Below are positions 2,731 to 31,724 of a stretch of DNA of 32,645 bases, piece after piece. Position 1 is the first letter of the stretch, and every line of letters starts with the position of its first letter. The notes below the pieces were generated by a model. It did no database searches. It worked only from the letters and a program-made list of their open reading frames with translations, and was not told the origin of the DNA. Source of the DNA: Bdellovibrionales bacterium (GTDB lineage Bacteria; Bdellovibrionota; Bdellovibrionia; Bdellovibrionales; UBA1609); NCBI GenBank assembly GCA_020435005.1, contig JAGRAE010000016.1, positions 1 through 32,645 on the forward strand. The letters run 5' to 3'. Position numbers and translations under genes: made by a program.

Positions 2731-3609
2731 TTACACTTCTATTGTAACAATTCTTTTCATGCTATATCCACCAATAATTTGTAGAGCTAGCATGATGAAT
2801 AGGGCGAACCAACCTAAAGGCTTGGTGAAAAGTGGCATAATATAGTTAGGATCGACAATGGAAAATACAATGAGTAAGGCAAACGGGACCAAAGTTATAA
2901 TCACTCCTTGCATCATTCCCTGCGAAGTCATGGCTTCGATTTTCTTTTGAACTTTCTGTCGTTCACGAATAGTGGTCGTAATAGTTTGAAATGTTTCTGC
3001 TAAATTTCCACCCGTTTCTTTTAAGATATTTATTGAGGTAACTAACATTTGCACATCTGATCGAGGAATGCGTTCGCTAAATTCATTAAAGGCTTCCTCA
3101 ATAGTCATGCCCAGTCTCACTTTATTTAATATAAGTTTGAATTCTTGTGTGAGTGGACCTTTCATGTTAATTGTTACCCTCTCTAGAGACTGTGTGATAC
3201 TAAGACCAGCTTTAATTCCATTTGACATGATCGTTAGGCCATCCACCATTTGGTTAGTAATTTTATTGCAACGACTTTCCCATAAATTATTGAGAACAAT
3301 TTTTGGCAAAGACCAACCGACAAATGTTATAGCAAAGGAAAATATCAACCCCACGATTATATTGGGCCAAAATGCTAAAAAGACTATAAATCCTAAACCA
3401 AAACTAGTGAGTAAAAGAATGTGAGTGATTTTCTTTTTATCAATATCGAGAAGCATTTTATCCATAATGGCAATGACTTCTTCTCTTTGACCTAAGCTTT
3501 TTTCATATAGAAAGGCAATAACTCTATCAGAGATTGAATAAGTAAAGATAAGTATGGAGAACGCAAAAACAATTATAAAAAGCCAATCATTTGTAATTAT
3601 AAAACTCAT
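2731..3609 (-). CDS. tadB: Tad pilus inner-membrane platform protein, TadB/T2SSF family
   Basis: This 292-residue membrane protein has an N-terminal membrane segment, a hydrophobic pair around residues 65-105, a cytoplasmic T2SSF helical domain (about 115-225, including MVDGLTIMSNGIKAGLSI and ILKETGGNLAETF) and two C-terminal membrane segments. TadB and TadC form the inner-membrane platform on which the CpaF/TadA ATPase acts to assemble or retract Flp pili. Its start overlaps the stop of the upstream ATPase gene by one base (TAATG), giving translational coupling. Only one platform gene is present in this operon; most Tad loci have two. TadC is an alternative name for the same family, and I chose TadB on overall shape. 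Confidence 0.85.
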   Translation of the reverse strand: MSFIITNDWLFIIVFAFSILIFTYSISDRVIAFLYEKSLGQREEVIAIMDKMLLDIDKKKITHILLLTSFGLGFIVFLAFWPNIIVGLIFSFAITFVGWSLPKIVLNNLWESRCNKITNQMVDGLTIMSNGIKAGLSITQSLERVTINMKGPLTQEFKLILNKVRLGMTIEEAFNEFSERIPRSDVQMLVTSINILKETGGNLAETFQTITTTIRERQKVQKKIEAMTSQGMMQGVIITLVPFALLIVFSIVDPNYIMPLFTKPLGWFALFIMLALQIIGGYSMKRIVTIEV

Positions 3610-5879
3610 TAGCTATCTTCTCCACTGGCCTTTTTAATTACGGGTCTTTTTAAAACAGGCCGTTTAGGCGCATTTGATGCGGAAGGATTAGAGGCATTTG
3701 AAGCGTCCGTAGAATTAGCAGAACTACTTTCATTGGTGGTAAATAAATTTCTAGGTATTTTTATGCCTCTTTGTTCAAATTTTTCAATGAAAGTGGGAAT
3801 AAGACCCATAGCCTGAAATTGACCGATAATTTTTCTGTTTTTATCAAAGCCTTCTTCTTTGAATCTAAAAATCTCTTGCAGCGTAACTGTTTCACCCTGC
3901 ATACCGACCACTTCTGTTATTGATTTGATTTTACGACTGCCATCACTTAAGCGACTAATTTGAACTATTAAATTCACAGCTCCGGCAATTTGTTCGCGTA
4001 TAGCTCTAGCTGGAAGTTCCATTCCCGCCATTAAACAAAGAGTTTCAAGACGAGAAATACCTTCTCTGGGTGTATTAGCATGTACTGTAGTCATCGATCC
4101 ATCATGACCTGTATTCATGGCGGAGAGCATATCTAAAGCGGCTCCATCACGACATTCTCCAACAACAATTCGGTCGGGTCTCATCCTTAAAGAGTTTCTA
4201 ATGAGATCTCGAATGGAAACTTCTCCTTCTCCTTCCATATTGGCCGGTCGAGTTTCGAGTCTAACTACATGCTCTTGTTTTAATTGCAATTCAGCAGCAT
4301 CTTCAACAGTAATAATTCTTTCATTGGCCGGAATAAATCCAGAAAGTACATTAAGCAAAGTAGTTTTACCAGTTCCAGTACCACCAGAAATAATTACGTT
4401 TAAACCTTGTTCTACGCAGATTTTTAAAAAATCAGCCATGGGTCGTGTCATTGAACCAAAGCGTTCAACATAGTCATCAATAGTAATGCGATCTTCGGGA
4501 AACTTCCTAATTGTTAATGCCGGACCATCAATAGACAAGGGTTCAATAACGGCATTCACACGACTACCATCTTGTAAGCGAGCATCTACATAAGGAGTTT
4601 TTTCGTCTATTCTACGTCCTAAAGGTGTTACGATTCTTTCTATAATATTTCTTAGTTGTGTATTTGATGTGAAAGTAACTTTACTTAAAGTAAGTTTACC
4701 GCCACGCTCAACGTAAATGTGATTAGCACCGTTTACCATTATTTCAGATACTTTTGAGTCAGCCAAAAGGGTTTCTAGTGGTCCTAATCCCAATGACTCA
4801 TCTAAGACTTCTTTTATAACTCTAGAACGCTCTTCTCTTGAAAGTCCTTGACCTAATCGATCTGTAAGCTGTGAAATAACTTGCATAGTTTTATTGCGTA
4901 ATTCAGTTTCTTTACTTTGGTCACCTTTTGTATTCATTAAATCTTTTTTAAGATCCATTTCTTTTATTAACTCATTGTGTATTGTCATTTTTAATTGAGT
5001 TAAAGGATCGATATTTTTGTCTGATTTGTTACGACCACCAGTGCTTCCTTCTATTTGCAATGAATCAGTCGAGTTAGTTGTAGAGCTCTGTTGGAGCTGT
5101 GGTTTAGGCCGCGAAAGAGACTTTAATCTCTGTAAAGGTCCACTGTTCAGTTTACGAACAATGTTGTGATATGAGACGGTCACTGGTGAATTGGTTTGGG
5201 TTAATACAAAAGGTGTAGAAGTTTGTAGCGCTTGATAAGTAATGGCGTCATCTTGAGGAATAGTGCCAATAACAGGACGCCGCAAAGTTTGTTGTATAGC
5301 TTGAGGAGCTAGTCCATTCTTACCCATTTTATTTACAATAATTTGCAACAAATCACCAGGCACTGTTGCCGCCATTAACTCATTAAGTGCTTTTCTTGTT
5401 TGGTTCACAGTGAGGACTTCAGGTGTGGTGACGATTAATAATCCACTAGCATCTTCAATTAAACTCAAATGAGCATCTTGTATGTCATTACCCATATCTA
5501 CAACAATGTAATTATAAAACTGACTTATATGTTGAAGTTGTTTTTTGAATAATTCACCTGGAAATTCGGGTCGCAGATCTGGTGATGTGACAGCTCCTAT
5601 ATAATGTAAACCTGAAGCATGAGGAGTAATTATCGTTTTTAAACTGTTGGGATTAATAGCTCCTTGAAATGTAGCCACTTCAGAAACTGTTTTAACAGGC
5701 CTAAGCCCGGTGATAATATTTTGATCACCACAACTTTTAACATCAAAATCAATTAATAAGGTTGGAGCGCGCATCTCTCTTAAAAAAGCACAAGCTAAAT
5801 TGGCAGCAAACACACTTTTGCCAACCCCACCTTTACCACCATATACGCAAACTAAGTGACATTTAGGACTAATTGACAT
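3609..5879 (-). CDS. cpaF: fused CpaE/TadZ-like and CpaF/TadA ATPase of the Tad pilus
   Basis: A single 756-residue polypeptide carries two ATPases normally encoded separately. Residues 1 to about 245 are a ParA/MinD-type CpaE/TadZ domain with a deviant Walker A motif (GGKGGVGKS, 14-22) and LLIDFD at 41-46; TadZ proteins localise the pilus machine. A Ser/Gln-rich linker of about 70 residues follows. Residues from about 320 form the secretion ATPase CpaF/TadA, with Walker A GGTGTGKTT (499-507), RIVVGECR (570-577) and the His-box region HDGSMTTVHAN (592-602); this is the motor for pilus assembly. A low-complexity Ser/Asn/Ala tail ends the protein. No stop or frameshift separates the halves. A CpaE receiver-like N-terminal domain is absent. 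A 123-base gap upstream contains a promoter-like sequence. Confidence 0.93.
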   Translation of the reverse strand: MSISPKCHLVCVYGGKGGVGKSVFAANLACAFLREMRAPTLLIDFDVKSCGDQNIITGLRPVKTVSEVATFQGAINPNSLKTIITPHASGLHYIGAVTSPDLRPEFPGELFKKQLQHISQFYNYIVVDMGNDIQDAHLSLIEDASGLLIVTTPEVLTVNQTRKALNELMAATVPGDLLQIIVNKMGKNGLAPQAIQQTLRRPVIGTIPQDDAITYQALQTSTPFVLTQTNSPVTVSYHNIVRKLNSGPLQRLKSLSRPKPQLQQSSTTNSTDSLQIEGSTGGRNKSDKNIDPLTQLKMTIHNELIKEMDLKKDLMNTKGDQSKETELRNKTMQVISQLTDRLGQGLSREERSRVIKEVLDESLGLGPLETLLADSKVSEIMVNGANHIYVERGGKLTLSKVTFTSNTQLRNIIERIVTPLGRRIDEKTPYVDARLQDGSRVNAVIEPLSIDGPALTIRKFPEDRITIDDYVERFGSMTRPMADFLKICVEQGLNVIISGGTGTGKTTLLNVLSGFIPANERIITVEDAAELQLKQEHVVRLETRPANMEGEGEVSIRDLIRNSLRMRPDRIVVGECRDGAALDMLSAMNTGHDGSMTTVHANTPREGISRLETLCLMAGMELPARAIREQIAGAVNLIVQISRLSDGSRKIKSITEVVGMQGETVTLQEIFRFKEEGFDKNRKIIGQFQAMGLIPTFIEKFEQRGIKIPRNLFTTNESSSANSTDASNASNPSASNAPKRPVLKRPVIKKASGEDS

Positions 5880-6002: not shown

Positions 6003-7508
6003 TTAATCTTTCAGTCTGAATTTTTGTTTAATTTTGTCTGCTCCTGCACTCGCAGAGGCTTTAATTACGGGTGTGACAAACACCACAAATTGGCTCTGGT
6101 TTCTTCTAAAACTCTTAGAGGCATAAAGAGAAATCAAAGGGTTTTTACTGGCATCCTCAGGTAGCTTGTTGTAGGAGGTGCCGGTATCGTTGGTGATAAG
6201 TCCACCGACAGCAGCACTCTGTCGACTTCTAACTACAATCTCCGTTTTAATTTCTCGGCTGGAGGTTAGAGGTCCCGCAGCAGTTTGGCTGATTAAACTC
6301 TTAATGGCAAAATTCAGTTTTAAATTTACACTATCAGATCTAGCGCCTATGATCCCAGGAGTTATTGCTGTTCTAATTCCTACTTCTTCAAAACTTGTAG
6401 AGGGTTGTCCTTGGGCATTTACTACTTGATAAGGAATTCTACTTAAAGAATTTAATACACCTTCATTGCCATCTTGAACAATTAATGAAGAGCTGTTAAG
6501 CACCCTGGCATGGCCATGTTCTTTTGCCCAATTTAATTTAGGCAACAAATTTTTAATAGTGCCTGAGATTGTTGCCACGGCACCACCTGGAGATCTTCCG
6601 CCGGTTGAAAAATCAACTTGTGAACCATCGCCAATGTCTGGTGTCCATTGAAATCTAAAGCCTTTGTTGTAATCTTTTTGTAACTCAACATAGTGAACTA
6701 TTAGTTGAATAATCTTTCTAGGCTCTTCTGCAGCTTGTTCCTTAATATCACAAAGATTTATAACTATATCTGCACGACGTGTTTGAACTTTTTTATCGGC
6801 AACTCCCTCTTCAACGACAACATCAGGGGCATAAGCTTTGGCGATAATTTCAACGCGATCCATTTCTCTTTTGTCGCGACATGTACCTTGAATAATAAAC
6901 TTTCCATTGATTGCTTTAACTTGAATTTCTGGGTTGTTTATTTCCCTCTCAATAAATTGAGCAATTTTAGCTTGTGCTAACGGAGAAAGTGTTACTAAGT
7001 TCGTAGCTTTATCCCCATATTGTTTTACTACTGAATGTATGCGGTTCATATCTTTTGGCAATAGAATTTCACCATCTACAATTACTTTATTATTTTTAGT
7101 AATAATGCGTATGCCTTCGATATCTTTTAATAAGTCTTTTATTTCTCTAGAAATTTTAAATAAGTCAGTTTGTTTGACATCTATTCGAATTTCATAAACC
7201 ACTTGTTCGCGGCTATCTTTAATAAATAAAACGCCTAAGCCGACTTTCTTTGGCGTAAATCTCAAAACCTTTGTATTAGGGTTGTATTGAATTTTAACTA
7301 GTTTAGTGTATTCTCCACCTTTTGAAAAATCAGACGGTGCTTTAGGAATTTTAATATCTTTATAGACCCCTTTTTCTAGAGATACAGATATCACTTGGTG
7401 ATCAGCAGCAGAGCTTGTAAGTGGATTAACCACAAAAGAAGCCAAGCAGAAAAATATTGATAAGAACAGATAGTTAAAATTATTAATTTTTAATTCCCCC
7501 ATAATCAT
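6003..7508 (-). CDS. cpaC: Tad pilus outer-membrane secretin CpaC/RcpA
   Basis: A 501-residue protein with an N-terminal export signal (about residues 9-35). A pilus-and-BON-type periplasmic region follows, with KVIVDGEILLPKDMNRI near 143-160 and FIIQGTCRDKREMDRVE. The C-terminal secretin domain (about 270-485) includes VQDGNEGVLNSLSRIPYQ, VGIRTAITPGI, SAAVGGLI and the closing FVVFVTPVI. Secretins form the outer-membrane ring through which the Flp pilus passes. The gene lies 12 bases after cpaB, consistent with the usual cpaB-cpaC order. The length is typical. The first ATG at 7508 has only a weak upstream GAG; the ATG two codons later is an alternative start. Confidence 0.95.
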   Translation of the reverse strand: MIMGELKINNFNYLFLSIFFCLASFVVNPLTSSAADHQVISVSLEKGVYKDIKIPKAPSDFSKGGEYTKLVKIQYNPNTKVLRFTPKKVGLGVLFIKDSREQVVYEIRIDVKQTDLFKISREIKDLLKDIEGIRIITKNNKVIVDGEILLPKDMNRIHSVVKQYGDKATNLVTLSPLAQAKIAQFIEREINNPEIQVKAINGKFIIQGTCRDKREMDRVEIIAKAYAPDVVVEEGVADKKVQTRRADIVINLCDIKEQAAEEPRKIIQLIVHYVELQKDYNKGFRFQWTPDIGDGSQVDFSTGGRSPGGAVATISGTIKNLLPKLNWAKEHGHARVLNSSSLIVQDGNEGVLNSLSRIPYQVVNAQGQPSTSFEEVGIRTAITPGIIGARSDSVNLKLNFAIKSLISQTAAGPLTSSREIKTEIVVRSRQSAAVGGLITNDTGTSYNKLPEDASKNPLISLYASKSFRRNQSQFVVFVTPVIKASASAGADKIKQKFRLKD

Positions 7509-7520
7509 AATATGCTCACT

Positions 7521-8405
7521 TTATAGATCAATAAAAGGCCCTTTCTTTTTGCTTTTCTTTGTTGGCGACTTTTGTGGCAATGTTTGTGGCAAGGCCGTCG
7601 GTTGTCTTGTTAATTGTTTACTAATAACAGGCGTACTAACTTTTCTCAGCACTGATTCTATAGTTGAGTTTGCCAAACGTGGGCTTTTTCTGTCACTAGG
7701 ATGTCTCAATGTCATAAATAAAGAACCTGGCGAAGTTGATAAGATATAAATCAAATCTTGAGCTTGTTTGGGATCCGCCTCAATAGTGACATTGGTAAAT
7801 GTCGTATCGGCCCTTAAGTTTCTTACAAACTCATCTTTTCCTTGTTTTTCGAAAAGTCTTGGCAGCTCATTTATTATTTTTATTCCGGTAGCCAGAATAA
7901 CTACATTTTGCATAAGAGTAATGACTTCTCTTTTTTGATTAGCACCTGTTCCTACATCTAGTGCAGCAATGATATCTACACGATCTCCTGGTTTTATTAA
8001 CTTCGCAATACCACGCATTTCATCAATTGGAATGGTAACGGCACGCATGCCTGGGGCGACTTGAAGAGATAATCCTGTGATTGGGCCAGGTTCCATAATT
8101 TTATTTTCCAGGATTTGTTCTTGTTCTTTAATGGGCGCAAGAGCCACTTTACCCACAGCCAGTTCTGGGTCATTGACCGCTGTTGGTTGAATAAAATCAA
8201 CAGGCCTTTCAACAATTTCTAACATGGTTTCGTCTATAGTTTCCATTTCATTTATATCTCTTGTAGCCACTACCACCTTTTCTTTAGCGCCAAATTTCTT
8301 ATTTAATTCCGCAGTTTTTTCTTGGGTGTAGCTATATAATAAGAATACCGCAATTATTGCTGCAAAGACCGAAATCCATAATGTGCGTGTCTCATTTTGA
8401 TTCAT
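7521..8405 (-). CDS. cpaB: Tad pilus assembly protein CpaB/RcpC, SAF domain
   Basis: This 294-residue protein has one N-terminal membrane segment (TLWISVFAAIIAVFLLYSY) followed by an SAF domain (about residues 43-105, with VVVATRDINEMETI). An RcpC region follows, containing VAPGMRAVTIPIDEMRG and LIKPGDRVDII. The C-terminus is Pro/Lys-rich and ends GPFIDL. CpaB is a periplasmic, inner-membrane-anchored component that is thought to stabilise the secretin channel. It starts behind a gtagga-type ribosome site, 23 bases after the preceding pilin-like gene. Confidence 0.93.
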   Translation of the reverse strand: MNQNETRTLWISVFAAIIAVFLLYSYTQEKTAELNKKFGAKEKVVVATRDINEMETIDETMLEIVERPVDFIQPTAVNDPELAVGKVALAPIKEQEQILENKIMEPGPITGLSLQVAPGMRAVTIPIDEMRGIAKLIKPGDRVDIIAALDVGTGANQKREVITLMQNVVILATGIKIINELPRLFEKQGKDEFVRNLRADTTFTNVTIEADPKQAQDLIYILSTSPGSLFMTLRHPSDRKSPRLANSTIESVLRKVSTPVISKQLTRQPTALPQTLPQKSPTKKSKKKGPFIDL

Positions 8406-27189: not shown

Positions 27190-27246
27190 AAACAAAGTTG
27201 TCATTTTCAAATGATAGCACCGGGAAAATCCATAAAGGGGTGGTAC

Positions 27247-28011
27247 GTGGCGTCACCGGCCATTGAATTAATAAATGTAAGTCTTGTCTTTAATGGCAGA
27301 GAAACAGTTTTAGAAAATATAAATCTAAAAGTCGAAACGGGTGAAAAACTTGTAGTTATTGGCCCAAGTGGAGAAGGCAAATCAGTTCTTTTAAAAATTA
27401 TTGGTGGTATTCTTCCGCCCACGAGTGGTGAAGTACTTATACAAGGACAAAACATTAATAAAATCTCGTCCACTCAGCGTGATAAAATTTTGCGTAAAAT
27501 GGGCATGTTATTTCAAAAAAATGCTTTATTTGACTCGCTAACTTCTGCTGAAAATATAGCATTTCCTATGAGAGAAGTTTTGGGAATTGATGAAAAAGAA
27601 ATTGCAATTAAAGTCGATCAATTTTTAGAAGCCGTTGCCATTCCACACGCAAAAAATTTATATCCTGACGAAATTTCTGGGGGCATGCAAAAAAGATTAG
27701 GTATTGCTCGTGCGCTGGCTCTTAACCCTGAAATCATTTTGTATGACGACCCTACAGCCGGATTAGATCCAATAACCAGCAGAATGATAATCCAATTAAT
27801 AAAAGATTTGCAAAAGCAAAGAAACTCTACGCTTGTAGCTATCACAAATGACATGATGAGAGCTTATCAAATGGCAGACAGGATAGCGATGGTTGTTGAT
27901 CGAGAGTTAATAATTACTGGCAATGAGACCCAAACAAAAAACAGTAAAGACCCACGTGTACATCAATTCATAAGAGGACAGTTAGAGGGTCCACTCACGG
28001 AGTCTCCATGA
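27247..28011 (+). CDS. MlaF-like ABC ATPase 1 with degenerate catalytic residues
   Basis: A 254-residue ATPase from GTG at 27247, chosen because aagggg lies 6 bases upstream; an ATG at 27211 has no ribosome site. Walker A GPSGEGKS (39-46), Q-loop FQK and a normal signature SGGMQKR (144-150) are present. The Walker B end reads ILYDDPTAGLD, with D168 where the catalytic Glu belongs, and the switch region reads ITNDMM, with N201 in place of His. It should bind ATP but hydrolyse it poorly. It overlaps the next ATPase gene by 4 bases (ATGA) and probably forms a heterodimer with that product in an MCE lipid transporter. Confidence 0.92.
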   Translation: MASPAIELINVSLVFNGRETVLENINLKVETGEKLVVIGPSGEGKSVLLKIIGGILPPTSGEVLIQGQNINKISSTQRDKILRKMGMLFQKNALFDSLTSAENIAFPMREVLGIDEKEIAIKVDQFLEAVAIPHAKNLYPDEISGGMQKRLGIARALALNPEIILYDDPTAGLDPITSRMIIQLIKDLQKQRNSTLVAITNDMMRAYQMADRIAMVVDRELIITGNETQTKNSKDPRVHQFIRGQLEGPLTESP

Positions 28012-28739
28012 TCAAATTTGAAAATTTAGTCAAAAAATTTGGTGATAGAACGATATTAAAGGGAATTAGTTTTGAGGTTAATAAAGGTGATATTTTATTT
28101 ATCTTAGGAACTTCTGGTACAGGCAAGTCTGTACTTCTAAAAAATATTGTTGGTTTATTAAAACCAACAAGTGGTAAGATCTGGATAGATAAGGAAGAAG
28201 TCAGTCAGTACAGTGAGGAGCAATATCTGCCTATCAGAAAAAAATGTGGAATGGTTTTTCAACATCCAGCCTTGTTTGATTCTCTTAATATTTTTGAGAA
28301 TGTTGCTTTTGGATTAAGAAGACATTATCAGTTGGACGAATCAGAAATACAAAAAAGAGTAAAAGAATGCCTTCAACTTGTTAATCTACAAGGCATTGAA
28401 GATAAACTTCCTCAGGATATATCTTATGGAATGCAAAAAAGAGTAAGTTTGGCCCGCACAGTTGCAGTGGGTCCTGAAGTACTTCTGTTTGATGAACCTA
28501 CGACTGGCTTAGACCCTGTTACAACTAATGCTGTAAATAAGTTAATTAAAGACCTATCTCGAAAATTAAAAACTACATCTATTGTAGTTAGTCATGACAT
28601 GCACTGTGCTTTAGATATCGCCGATAAGATAATTGTTTTAGATAAAGGAAATATTATTGAACAGGGAACACCAGATGAAATTAAAAAAAGCCAAGTGGAA
28701 CTAGTTGTTGGATTTTTAGAAGAGGTTGAACATGCTTAA
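28008..28739 (+). CDS. mlaF: MlaF-like ABC ATPase 2 with intact catalytic residues but altered signature
   Basis: A 243-residue ATPase. Walker A is GTSGTGKS (34-41); Walker B ends LLFDEPTTGLD with E163 intact; the switch is VSHDMH with H196 intact. The signature reads ISYGMQKR, with Y140 in the place of a conserved Gly. These are the reverse of the changes in ATPase 1. The normal catalytic site of a heterodimer would pair this protein's Walker motifs with the intact signature of ATPase 1. It overlaps the permease gene start by 8 bases. Confidence 0.92.
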   Translation: MIKFENLVKKFGDRTILKGISFEVNKGDILFILGTSGTGKSVLLKNIVGLLKPTSGKIWIDKEEVSQYSEEQYLPIRKKCGMVFQHPALFDSLNIFENVAFGLRRHYQLDESEIQKRVKECLQLVNLQGIEDKLPQDISYGMQKRVSLARTVAVGPEVLLFDEPTTGLDPVTTNAVNKLIKDLSRKLKTTSIVVSHDMHCALDIADKIIVLDKGNIIEQGTPDEIKKSQVELVVGFLEEVEHA

Positions 28740-29508
28740 TGCTATTGGCAAAGGTATCGAGTTTATTGGTGGATGTACTTTATTTGTTGGTGAAATAATA
28801 CATAGCGGTTTTCGAGGAAAATTTTCTACTCATGAAATAGCTGAACAGACATGGCGTGTGTCGATGCAAAGTTTATCTACGACGGCGCTGGCTGGATTTT
28901 TTGTTGGGGCAATAATGACTGTGCAGTTTACCATGCAGATTCAACAATTTGGCGCACTTGGTTATTTGGGTGGATTATCTACTAGCGGAACAATAAGAGA
29001 AATTGGACCCTTATTGATTGCATTTATGTTAAGTGGGAAAGTAGGTGCGTTCACTTCTGCTGAACTTGGAACGATGAAAGTCACAGAACAACTAGATGCC
29101 ATTCGTTGCTTGGGTTCTAGCCCTATACGCGAAATAATATTGCCGCGATATATTGCTATTATTTTATCTAGCTTTTTTCTTCTAACCATTGGCTTATTTA
29201 TGTCCATAGGTGGTGGCCTTTTACTGGGAATGTTTTTTTCTGGAATTAACTATGAAGAATACTTAAGGCATATTCCAACAATTGTTGCCTGGCCATCAAT
29301 ATTAATAGGATTGTTTAAGTGTTTAGTATTTTCTATAATATTAGCATCAATTTGTACTTATCGTGGATATACCACAACAGGGGGAGCCAAAGGAGTGGGG
29401 CAGGCTGTAGTTAACACGGCAGTAGCAACTATGATTGGAATTGTGGTCGCAGATTGGGTTACAAGTTATATCAGTGAAGCTATTCAAAACTTTTTTTTAG
29501 GAGCGTAA
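28732..29508 (+). CDS. mlaE: MlaE-like permease 1
   Basis: A 258-residue polytopic membrane protein of the MlaE/YrbE family. I prefer the ATG at 28732 with agagg 6 bases upstream over the TTG at 28726. The family core is GTIREIGPLLIAFMLSGKVGAFTSAELGTMK followed by VTEQLDAIRCLG (written here in parts: GTIREIGPLL, ELGTMKVTEQLDAI). The usual Arg of the 'GRVG' stretch is Lys here (SGKVGA). It forms the membrane channel part of the lipid transporter with the second permease. Confidence 0.92.
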   Translation: MLNAIGKGIEFIGGCTLFVGEIIHSGFRGKFSTHEIAEQTWRVSMQSLSTTALAGFFVGAIMTVQFTMQIQQFGALGYLGGLSTSGTIREIGPLLIAFMLSGKVGAFTSAELGTMKVTEQLDAIRCLGSSPIREIILPRYIAIILSSFFLLTIGLFMSIGGGLLLGMFFSGINYEEYLRHIPTIVAWPSILIGLFKCLVFSIILASICTYRGYTTTGGAKGVGQAVVNTAVATMIGIVVADWVTSYISEAIQNFFLGA

Positions 29509-29511
29509 ATA

Positions 29512-30285
29512 GTGTTAGCTGCTGTAGGAATCAAGGTCATAAACTTTAATTTTCATTTAATTGGAGTCTTGCAATTAATATTTCAAACTTTAGCTAGCAC
29601 TATATCGCCCCCTTTTAGAATTAAAGATATTTTTAAACAACTGAATTTTGTTGCCGTTGAAAGTGCTCCCATTGTGATATTTTGTGTAAGCTTTGCTGCG
29701 GTTGTAACAATTATTGAGTCTTCATTTCACATGAAAATTGTGGTGCAAAATGATGCATTAGTACCAGGTTTTGCATCATTACTCATTTTGAGGGAATTGG
29801 GCGCAGTCGTCTCTGCTCTATTGATCACTTCTAGAGTGGGTGCTGGTTTAGCTGCTGAGGTTGGAAGTATGCAAGTCACAGAACAAGTGGATGCATTAAA
29901 AATGTTAGGCATTGATCCAGTTAGATTTATTGTTGTTCCCCGTTTTATTGCTTGTTTGTTAGGCGGATTTTTATTGAGTATTCTTGCGAATATAGTTTGT
30001 TTAATATGTGCCATGTTGGTGAGTCAATTTAGTTTAGGATATACTTTTGGTAGCTTTATTGTGGGAATGAAAAGTTTTGTGCATTTTCAAGATTTAGTTT
30101 TTGCTTCTATAAAAGGAGCGAGTTTTGGAGCTGTCATTCCCATTTTTAGTTGTTATTATGGATTTAAATGTAAAGCCGGAGCTGAAGGAGTAGGTTTAGC
30201 AACTACAAATAGTGTGGTTACAACATCTGTTGCTATCATTGTGATAGATTTTATTTTGTCATATATATTTTCATTTTTTTACTGA
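29512..30285 (+). CDS. mlaE: MlaE-like permease 2
   Basis: A 257-residue permease of the same family, starting at GTG 29512 with aggag 8 bases upstream. It has the canonical features LRELGAVVSALLITSRVGAG and EVGSMQVTEQVDALKMLG, so it keeps the Arg that permease 1 has lost. It lies 3 bases after permease 1. Two different permeases in one operon suggest a heterodimeric membrane core, as in the YrbEA/YrbEB pairs of mycobacterial Mce systems. Confidence 0.92.
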   Translation: MLAAVGIKVINFNFHLIGVLQLIFQTLASTISPPFRIKDIFKQLNFVAVESAPIVIFCVSFAAVVTIIESSFHMKIVVQNDALVPGFASLLILRELGAVVSALLITSRVGAGLAAEVGSMQVTEQVDALKMLGIDPVRFIVVPRFIACLLGGFLLSILANIVCLICAMLVSQFSLGYTFGSFIVGMKSFVHFQDLVFASIKGASFGAVIPIFSCYYGFKCKAGAEGVGLATTNSVVTTSVAIIVIDFILSYIFSFFY

Positions 30286-30299
30286 GGGGCTAGTTAAGT

Positions 30300-31076
30300 A
30301 TGAGACCAGAAGCAAAAGTAGGATTATTATTTATTGTATCTATTCTTTTAGTAATAGGCTTTGCCTTTGCTTTAGGAGTCATAAGTCCAATGGCAAGTTC
30401 TAATGAACTGACTATTGCTTATAATTTTGCCGGAGGAATTGAGGTGGGTTCACCAGTAAGAGTTATGGGTATTAAAGTAGGAAAAGTAAAATCCATTAAT
30501 TTTTCTCCCGATTTTAAAATGCCGGATGGTGAGGAAGTTAAATTAAAGATAAAAGTCGCAGTGGAAAAGAAAGCATGGAATTCAATCAGGAAAGATAGCC
30601 ACTTTTATATAAACCTTGCAGGAGTTATCGGTGAAAAATTTCTCGAAATTACACCGGGATCAATGGAATCTGAACAATTAAAATCCGGGGACACCGTCAG
30701 GGGAACAGATCCTCCCAGAATTGATCAATTGATCTCACAAAGTTATGGTCTGGCCGGAAAAATAATTAAAATGGTTGAAGAGAATGAAACATCCGTCGTA
30801 AGCACCATAGAGACAATGAATAAATTAGTGGTAAACCTCAATAAATTGATGGTGCAAATGGAAAAAACCACAAATGCGACAGATATTGGCAAATTAATTA
30901 AAAATTTAGTCGTTTTATCTGGAGATTTAGCTTATTTTTCCCAGACATTGAGAACAAAAGAGGGCGAAGATACATTAAAACTCGTAAAAGAGCTAATTTG
31001 GCGCTTAGAAGAACTTGACAAAAAGGCCATAAAAAAGTTTTTACAGGATGAAGGCATCAAAGCTAAGTTATTTTAA
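30300..31076 (+). CDS. mlaD: MlaD-like MCE-domain protein
   Basis: A 258-residue protein with one N-terminal membrane segment (VGLLFIVSILLVIGFAFALG) and a single MCE domain (about 38-120, YNFAGGIEVGSPVRVMGIKV and VIGEKFLEITPG). A helical C-terminal region of about 130 residues follows. MCE proteins form periplasmic hexameric rings that shuttle lipids between membranes. This tail is longer than that of E. coli MlaD and could extend towards the outer membrane. A gagggg ribosome site precedes the ATG. Confidence 0.93.
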   Translation: MRPEAKVGLLFIVSILLVIGFAFALGVISPMASSNELTIAYNFAGGIEVGSPVRVMGIKVGKVKSINFSPDFKMPDGEEVKLKIKVAVEKKAWNSIRKDSHFYINLAGVIGEKFLEITPGSMESEQLKSGDTVRGTDPPRIDQLISQSYGLAGKIIKMVEENETSVVSTIETMNKLVVNLNKLMVQMEKTTNATDIGKLIKNLVVLSGDLAYFSQTLRTKEGEDTLKLVKELIWRLEELDKKAIKKFLQDEGIKAKLF

Positions 31077-31106
31077 TGACTCAACTTTATGAGTTGGGAG
31101 AGGTTT

Positions 31107-31724
31107 ATGCAGAATTATTTATTACTTCTTATATCTATATATATGTATTCATTTTCGGCATTGGGGCAGGCGGTGTTAGTAGAAGAAAAAGGTCGAGCAG
31201 TTGGTCCGAGTGTCAGATATAAATCCGAATCGAAATCCACACTAAACTCTGCAGATTTTAAATATAAAAGAAAAGTAGGTGTCGGGATCTCTGCAGCAGG
31301 AGCCTCTGGACTCATTGGTGCAAATTTAGAACTTAATTTCACTCCGGAAACAAGTTTTTCAACAAGTTTTGGTTTGGCAGATAATTTTCAAACTTTTGGC
31401 TTTTCGATTAAGAAAAGTATTAGCGGAAAATACTTTGCACCGTATATCGCGGGCGGGTTTACTCGTTGGTACACAGTTACTGATGAAGGTCCTTTTACCG
31501 AAAGTAGTCCAGGATTCTTAGCTGAAAAGTTTCTTTCAGCCAAAGAAAAACAAGAAGGTCAATTTGCAGAAACCTTAATTTATCCGGCTTTAGGAATTCA
31601 ATATTTACAACTTGATGGAGAATGGGCCGGCTCATCTATATATGCCGAAGTATTAATGCTAATAGATATTGATGATTTCAAATCTGCTCCCACTGGTGGA
31701 GTTGGCTACCTCTACTATTTTTAA
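31107..31724 (+). CDS. putative outer-membrane protein of the MCE operon
   Basis: A 205-residue protein. The ATG at 31107 is preferred because ggag lies 6 bases upstream and a signal peptide begins there (QNYLLLLISIYMYSFSALGQA); the ATG at 31089 is unsupported. The mature part is rich in alternating beta-type segments (VGVGISAAGASGLIGANLEL, FAPYIAGGFTRWY) and ends GVGYLYYF with a terminal Phe, as in outer-membrane beta-barrels. It could be the outer-membrane partner of the lipid transporter, replacing MlaA, or an unrelated barrel. The operon position supports the former. Confidence 0.7.
   Translation: MQNYLLLLISIYMYSFSALGQAVLVEEKGRAVGPSVRYKSESKSTLNSADFKYKRKVGVGISAAGASGLIGANLELNFTPETSFSTSFGLADNFQTFGFSIKKSISGKYFAPYIAGGFTRWYTVTDEGPFTESSPGFLAEKFLSAKEKQEGQFAETLIYPALGIQYLQLDGEWAGSSIYAEVLMLIDIDDFKSAPTGGVGYLYYF

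Follow-up and report, generated by a model that had tools for sequence, protein, structure and literature searches.

Two adjacent genes for MlaF-like ATPases in a bacterium of the order Bdellovibrionales raise the question of whether an MCE-type transporter can be driven by two different ATPases with complementary defects, rather than by two copies of the same one. The genes lie in the window, the whole stretch of 32,645 nucleotides that was analysed, which lies on contig C77 of a 3.39 Mb draft genome (G000). They begin an operon at 27247-31724 on the plus strand, divergent from mdh, with the gene order F1, F2, E1, E2, D, X.

The operon and the motif states of its two ATPases

The features on which the argument rests are as follows.

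27247-28011, plus strand: ATPase 1 (F1), MlaF-like ABC ATPase, 254 aa from a GTG start (translation; alignment to solved MlaF chains)
27679-27681, plus strand: F1 Gly145, in the intact SGGM signature (SGGM in 121/121 F1 sequences)
27748-27750, plus strand: F1 Asp168, codon GAC, at the catalytic-Glu position (Asp in 86/86 F1 within the order, 7/24 outside)
27847-27849, plus strand: F1 Asn201, codon AAT, at the switch-His position (His lost in 109/110 F1 of the F1-ascertained set)
28008-28739, plus strand: ATPase 2 (F2), MlaF-like ABC ATPase, 243 aa (translation; alignment to solved MlaF chains)
28425-28427, plus strand: F2 Tyr140, codon TAT, at the third position of the signature, which reads SYGM (aromatic in F2 of 103/103 paired loci)
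28732-29508, plus strand: E1, MlaE-family permease, 258 aa (PF02405 match ~1e-58)
29512-30285, plus strand: E2, MlaE-family permease, 257 aa (PF02405 match ~1e-58)
30300-31076, plus strand: D, MCE (MlaD) domain protein, 258 aa (PF02470 match 1.8e-17; AlphaFold model)
31089-31724, plus strand: X, predicted 8-stranded outer-membrane beta-barrel, 211 aa (structure model; no Pfam match)

The genes are closely packed: the ATG of F2 overlaps the stop of F1 by 4 nt, the end of F2 overlaps E1 by 8 nt, and the later gaps measure 3-14 nt. An alternative in-frame ATG for F1 at 27211 would give 266 aa (12 further residues) and leaves the motifs unaffected. With an MlaE permease, an MCE protein in the operon and MlaF-like ATPases whose signature ends in Met, all the marks of the MCE/MlaE-type (type VIII) ABC class are present, and, judged by its predicted permease, MCE protein and ATPase, the operon is a transporter of this type. 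In the AlphaFold model, D consists of a transmembrane helix, the MCE domain and a helical C-terminal region, the last modelled with low confidence, and its best PDB matches are Mce1 subunits and MlaD. The Pfam search gave no hit for X; its model (pLDDT 90.7) shows an N-terminal signal-like helix followed by a barrel, with the OprF N-terminal barrel as best PDB match and OmpA/OmpX/NspA-type barrels after it. Taken together, the models of D and X suggest a route from the inner to the outer membrane. Elsewhere in the window, a protein of 756 aa (3609-5879, minus strand) joins a ParA/MinD-type N-terminal domain to a T2SSE ATPase C-terminal domain, and sits in a Flp/Tad-like pilus cluster with a secretin (6003-7508) and RcpC/CpaB (7521-8405).

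The best PDB matches of both F1 and F2 are MlaF chains, and Walker A, the Q-loop and the D-loop are intact in each. F1 also keeps its signature (S144-G145-G146-M147) and ends in an MlaF-like C-terminal tail (DPRVHQFIRG..GPL), but carries D168 in place of the Walker B Glu and N201 in place of the switch His. F2 shows the opposite state, with E163 and H196 intact and Y140 in its signature. A sequence-only reading had assigned these residues (D168, N201 and SGGM; Y140, E163 and H196), and each proves correct when F1 is read from the GTG at 27247; the alignment with MlaF that it had proposed likewise places the motif residues of both proteins at the positions expected from the solved chains. Two canonical MlaF paralogs of this genome (C318 and C80) serve as a control, and none of their motifs is damaged.

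The genome holds four MCE matches: one belongs to the operon, and the remaining three to MlaE loci elsewhere. A second MCE locus, on contig C47 (L039:1549-4057), combines an MlaE permease and an MCE protein with a pseudo-ATPase that has the signature VPGSH, Glu in the Q-loop and Asn at the switch position. Decay has gone further in its relatives from Bdellovibrio bacteriovorus kdesi (L361) and Oligoflexia bacterium BroJett040 (L362), where Walker A reads AEEGAGKS or AASGSGRS, and the permease is still 66-68% identical. An orphan F1-like ATPase (F1b; L036:778-1539 and about 16 relatives) lies away from permeases, is about 50% identical to F1 and combines SGGM with Asp and mostly His; two genomes of the order (G002 and G128) have F1b and no detected F2.

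Conservation of the pair in the order and the phylum

To assess how the two motif patterns are distributed, F1 served as query against 141 genomes from the order (with names such as Bdellovibrionaceae, Pseudobdellovibrionaceae and Bdellovibrionales) and against 369 from the phylum, and F2 against 141; the regions around 100 places in the order and 40 further places were then taken and read in six frames. All motif counts rest on this F1-ascertained set. Loci found by a pattern scan were not used, and we rejected them as evidence for the F2 signature, since the pattern itself required S[YF]G and the argument would be circular. Four F2 hits with SGGM (L188, L327, L338, L342) are canonical MlaF proteins beside single permeases that were called F2 by best BLAST, and are not counted; of the hits with LSYGVQKR in Desulfobacterota, Actinomadura and others, those that were read out are LivG-type.

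The sequence-only reading had held that the two genes obey the rule of complementary defects and had asked whether both patterns co-occur in related genomes. They do so throughout Bdellovibrionota: in all 103 loci with both ATPases readable, the catalytic Glu and/or the switch His is changed in one gene and the signature in the other, as expected of a heterodimer with one degenerate site. Relatives with intact residues in both genes, which that reading had named as fatal to its proposal, account for 0/103 of these loci, and none is damaged in both genes on the same side. F1 combines SGG with Asp-Asn, Glu-Asn, Asp-Ser, Glu-Thr, Glu-Ser or Asp-His at the catalytic and switch positions, and F2 has SYG or SFG (once SFS), always with Glu and His. 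Because all 103 paired loci show it, the complementary pattern is far beyond chance, and we rejected chance or an assembly artefact as its source, given this number of loci in many genomes. One element of the original pattern is less general: Asp holds for 86/86 F1 within the order, where Asn is found in 85/86, but it is not universal: of the 24 F1 from beyond the order, 17 retain Glu, and none has the switch His. A single locus in the order (L157) has an F1 that retains His, though with Asp. Hence, what stays constant across the phylum is an F2 with an aromatic residue in its signature and an F1 that lacks the switch His, with Asp more variable. We read the change from Glu to Asp as a probable later step, on a tree whose inner nodes are weak.

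Throughout the phylum the genes follow one another as F1-F2-E1-E2-D, overlapping or nearly touching, with E1 and E2 as a conserved pair of non-identical permeases; X is recognised within the order and in some other families. Both ATPases occur in 89 of the 141 genomes searched in the order; 87 of these were found with both queries, and in the other two, G022 and G077, a contig end truncates one gene. Only two genomes gave F2 without F1: G061, which is 89% complete, and G129, which is 78% complete and whose contig ends upstream of F2. One genome, G100 (61% complete, with the contig ending in F1), gave F1 without F2. Thus, the two genes are retained or lost as a pair, with a small number of exceptions that mostly coincide with contig ends or genome incompleteness.

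In a FastTree phylogeny of about 190 sequences, which has low support at many inner nodes, F1 and F2 form separate clades with a support of 0.97 each. The subunits also differ beyond the motifs, since an MlaF-type C-terminal tail is present in 88/110 F1 and in 0/117 F2; any handshake would therefore be one-sided, the start of the tail being found in F1 and absent from F2. In one genome (G113, L125:2309-4048), a single 580-aa open frame covers both F2 and E1, joined by a linker. This suggests that each E1 takes one F2, and on the evidence of this one genome F1 would therefore lie beside E2. A 627-aa open frame in G040 had the appearance of an F1-F2 fusion, which we rejected because its additional length comes solely from reading frame upstream.

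A putative heterodimeric motor and the alternatives to it

The MlaF dimer is arranged head-to-tail (PMC7367683), and in each ABC site one subunit contributes Walker A and B, the Q-loop and the H-loop, and its partner contributes the signature (PMC7756269). Because ABC dimers are head-to-tail, only F1:F2 yields one complete site; as read from their motifs, F1:F1 and F2:F2 would have none. We therefore regard it as highly probable that F1 and F2 form the motor as an obligate heterodimer, in which one site is consensus and the other degenerate. Selection on such a heterodimer would be expected to divide the defects as strictly between the two subunits as is observed.

In the mechanism that we propose for this MCE-type lipid transporter, the F1:F2 motor would dock on a heterodimer of the permeases E1 and E2, and this core would carry a ring of the MCE protein D towards the outer membrane, where the small barrel X probably meets the ring. 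Site A would be formed by Walker A and B of F1 (with Asp and Asn) and the SYGM signature of F2; it would be degenerate, bind ATP with slow or no hydrolysis, and hold the dimer together. Site B, formed by Walker A and B of F2 (with Glu and His) and the SGGM signature of F1, would be the consensus site, at which ATP turnover powers the movement of lipid. The gene order, the residues and their joint conservation, the co-occurrence of the genes and the paralog controls are observed; the dimerisation of F1 with F2, the pairing of ATPases with permeases, ATP turnover at site B only, the lipid substrate and the direction of transport are inferred.

Among the alternatives, the one that survives best, although we consider it improbable, is that the operon encodes two separate homodimeric transporters, F1 working with one permease and F2 with the other, in which the motif changes tune each motor. 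With two permeases and two ATPases, such a split is numerically possible, and F1 is not always adjacent to F2: in some genomes (L129, L130, L134, L126/L195, L086/L196) several kb separate the two, or they are on different contigs. In L129, L130, L134 and L140, F2-E1 and the remaining genes lie about 1.6-4 kb downstream of F1 with other sequence between. The main counter-evidence to an obligate heterodimer comes from Cloacimonadota (L221, L227, L258, L272, L276), where an MlaF with the signature SFGM stands next to an MCE gene with no permease beside it, and where no partner ATPase was detected in the draft genomes examined; the partner may be missing from the drafts, or an aromatic signature may work in a homodimer. 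Against two homodimers in the operon itself, F1:F1 would have both sites without His and usually without Glu, F2:F2 would have two altered signatures, and a complementarity that is strict in 103/103 loci would have no reason. Moreover, a single MCE gene serves both permeases, and the ATPases are kept together.

A second possibility, which we judge very unlikely, is that the heterodimer is functionally symmetric, with the signature Tyr and the Asp and Asn neutral and both sites hydrolysing ATP. The Ser and the second Gly of a signature make the main contacts to ATP, and F2 keeps both. Asp and Asn are conservative changes that might still allow slow hydrolysis, a point that also counts against a strictly degenerate site, and some H-loop Asn or Gln mutants of MRP1 keep transport (PMC7756269). 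However, the canonical paralogs in the same genome keep E, H and SGGM, and in every case the two kinds of change fall on opposite subunits.

The proposal that F1 is a regulatory pseudo-ATPase, a nucleotide sensor or scaffold in an MlaB-like role beside working F2 homodimers, could draw on its lost catalytic residues, on the orphan F1b paralogs, which show that F1-type ATPases can stand alone, and on the lack of a linked MlaB (one weak, unlinked STAS_2 match in the genome), but it is the least credible of the three, because F1 keeps SGGM, Walker A and the Q- and D-loops, which a partner in a shared site needs and a scaffold does not, and because F2 alone would have an aromatic signature in both sites. 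Nor is F1 a decaying pseudogene, a reading that we rejected since SGGM is present in 121/121 sequences and Walker A, the Q-loop and the D-loop are conserved.

A similar division exists outside the phylum. An alphaproteobacterial MAG assigned to Rhodospirillaceae has two sister MlaF paralogs on different contigs (L346:5905-6744 and L347:6009-7636), one with SFGM and His beside a permease, the other an orphan with SGGM and Ser in place of the switch His; from these sequences the split looks like a separate origin. An F1 in a Deltaproteobacteria MAG (L283:3173-3910) has Ser at the catalytic-Glu position (CDSP) and keeps His. As a tentative evolutionary reading, which we hold to be possible but on balance doubtful, a hetero-oligomeric core of F1, F2, E1 and E2 with its D ring and barrel X would have reached a TAP-like degenerate site stepwise, with the Tyr and the loss of His first and the change from Glu to Asp later in Bdellovibrionales. 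Since a similar split would have arisen separately at least once, among the MlaF paralogs of Alphaproteobacteria, asymmetry might then be recurrent in MCE motors, perhaps for one-way lipid delivery across the envelope.

The direction of lipid transport by Mla, inward or outward, is still debated. With a conserved motor in which one site is live and the other degenerate, it becomes possible to ask whether a single hydrolysis per cycle suffices, and its asymmetry also asks which permease half hydrolysis drives. As the phylum holds Glu-Asn, Asp-Asn and Asp-Ser states, the role of each lost residue can be tested on natural variants, and because a cultured predator, Bdellovibrio bacteriovorus (L213, L326), carries the system, genetics is possible.

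Comparison with known systems

The operon resembles MlaFEDB of E. coli, A. baumannii and P. aeruginosa in its MlaF ATPases of the SGGM type, its MlaE-family permeases and its MCE ring protein, and the first part of the MlaF C-terminal tail is still present in F1. However, MlaFEDB has two identical MlaF and two identical MlaE subunits, whereas here there are two different proteins of each kind, the ATPases with complementary defects; D has an added helical region, and a barrel gene is part of the operon. The sequence-only reading had drawn the same contrast, which agrees with the homodimeric state of MlaF, as of MceG, in solved structures (PMC7367683, PMC9882608). The two non-identical, complementary ATPase genes argue against the MlaF homodimer that is characteristic of Mla, as far as their motifs can tell. 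The name Mla pathway was rejected: there is no match to MlaA (PF04333, for which the control search finds E. coli) or MlaC (PF05494) in the genome, and MlaB is absent from the operon, the one weak STAS_2 match lying on another contig. Because no MlaA or MlaC was found there and no MlaB is linked, this is not the Mla pathway sensu stricto.

Mycobacterial Mce1 (YrbE1A/B, MceG, Mce1A-F) likewise has two non-identical MlaE-family permeases and an MCE domain followed by helices, and provides the best fold match of D; it differs in having six different MCE proteins, where the operon has one, and its ATPase MceG is a homodimer (PMC9882608).

Asymmetric ABC proteins such as TAP1/2, CFTR, TM287/288 and BmrCD have one site with Glu changed to Asp (or Ser), an altered H-loop and an altered partner signature, and one consensus site (PMC7756269). 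The rule that the sequence-only reading took from these exporters fits the two genes, but extends more widely than the exporters it named. In these exporter-fold transporters, the ATPase domains are fused to membrane domains, while here the ATPases are separate subunits of an MCE system. A similar split is seen in LivF/LivG (read in L248 and L261), where LivG has SYG with intact E and H, and LivF combines SGG with a Gln in place of the switch His; LivF keeps Glu, like most F1 outside the order of the window. This pair serves another permease family and other substrates, and is about 27-30% identical to F2. In the open-licence literature searched, we found no report of a heterodimeric MCE ATPase, which is a weak negative. 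The principle of the split is not new, as LivF/LivG and TAP and CFTR show it; what appears to be new here is its phylum-wide, complementary form in an MCE motor.
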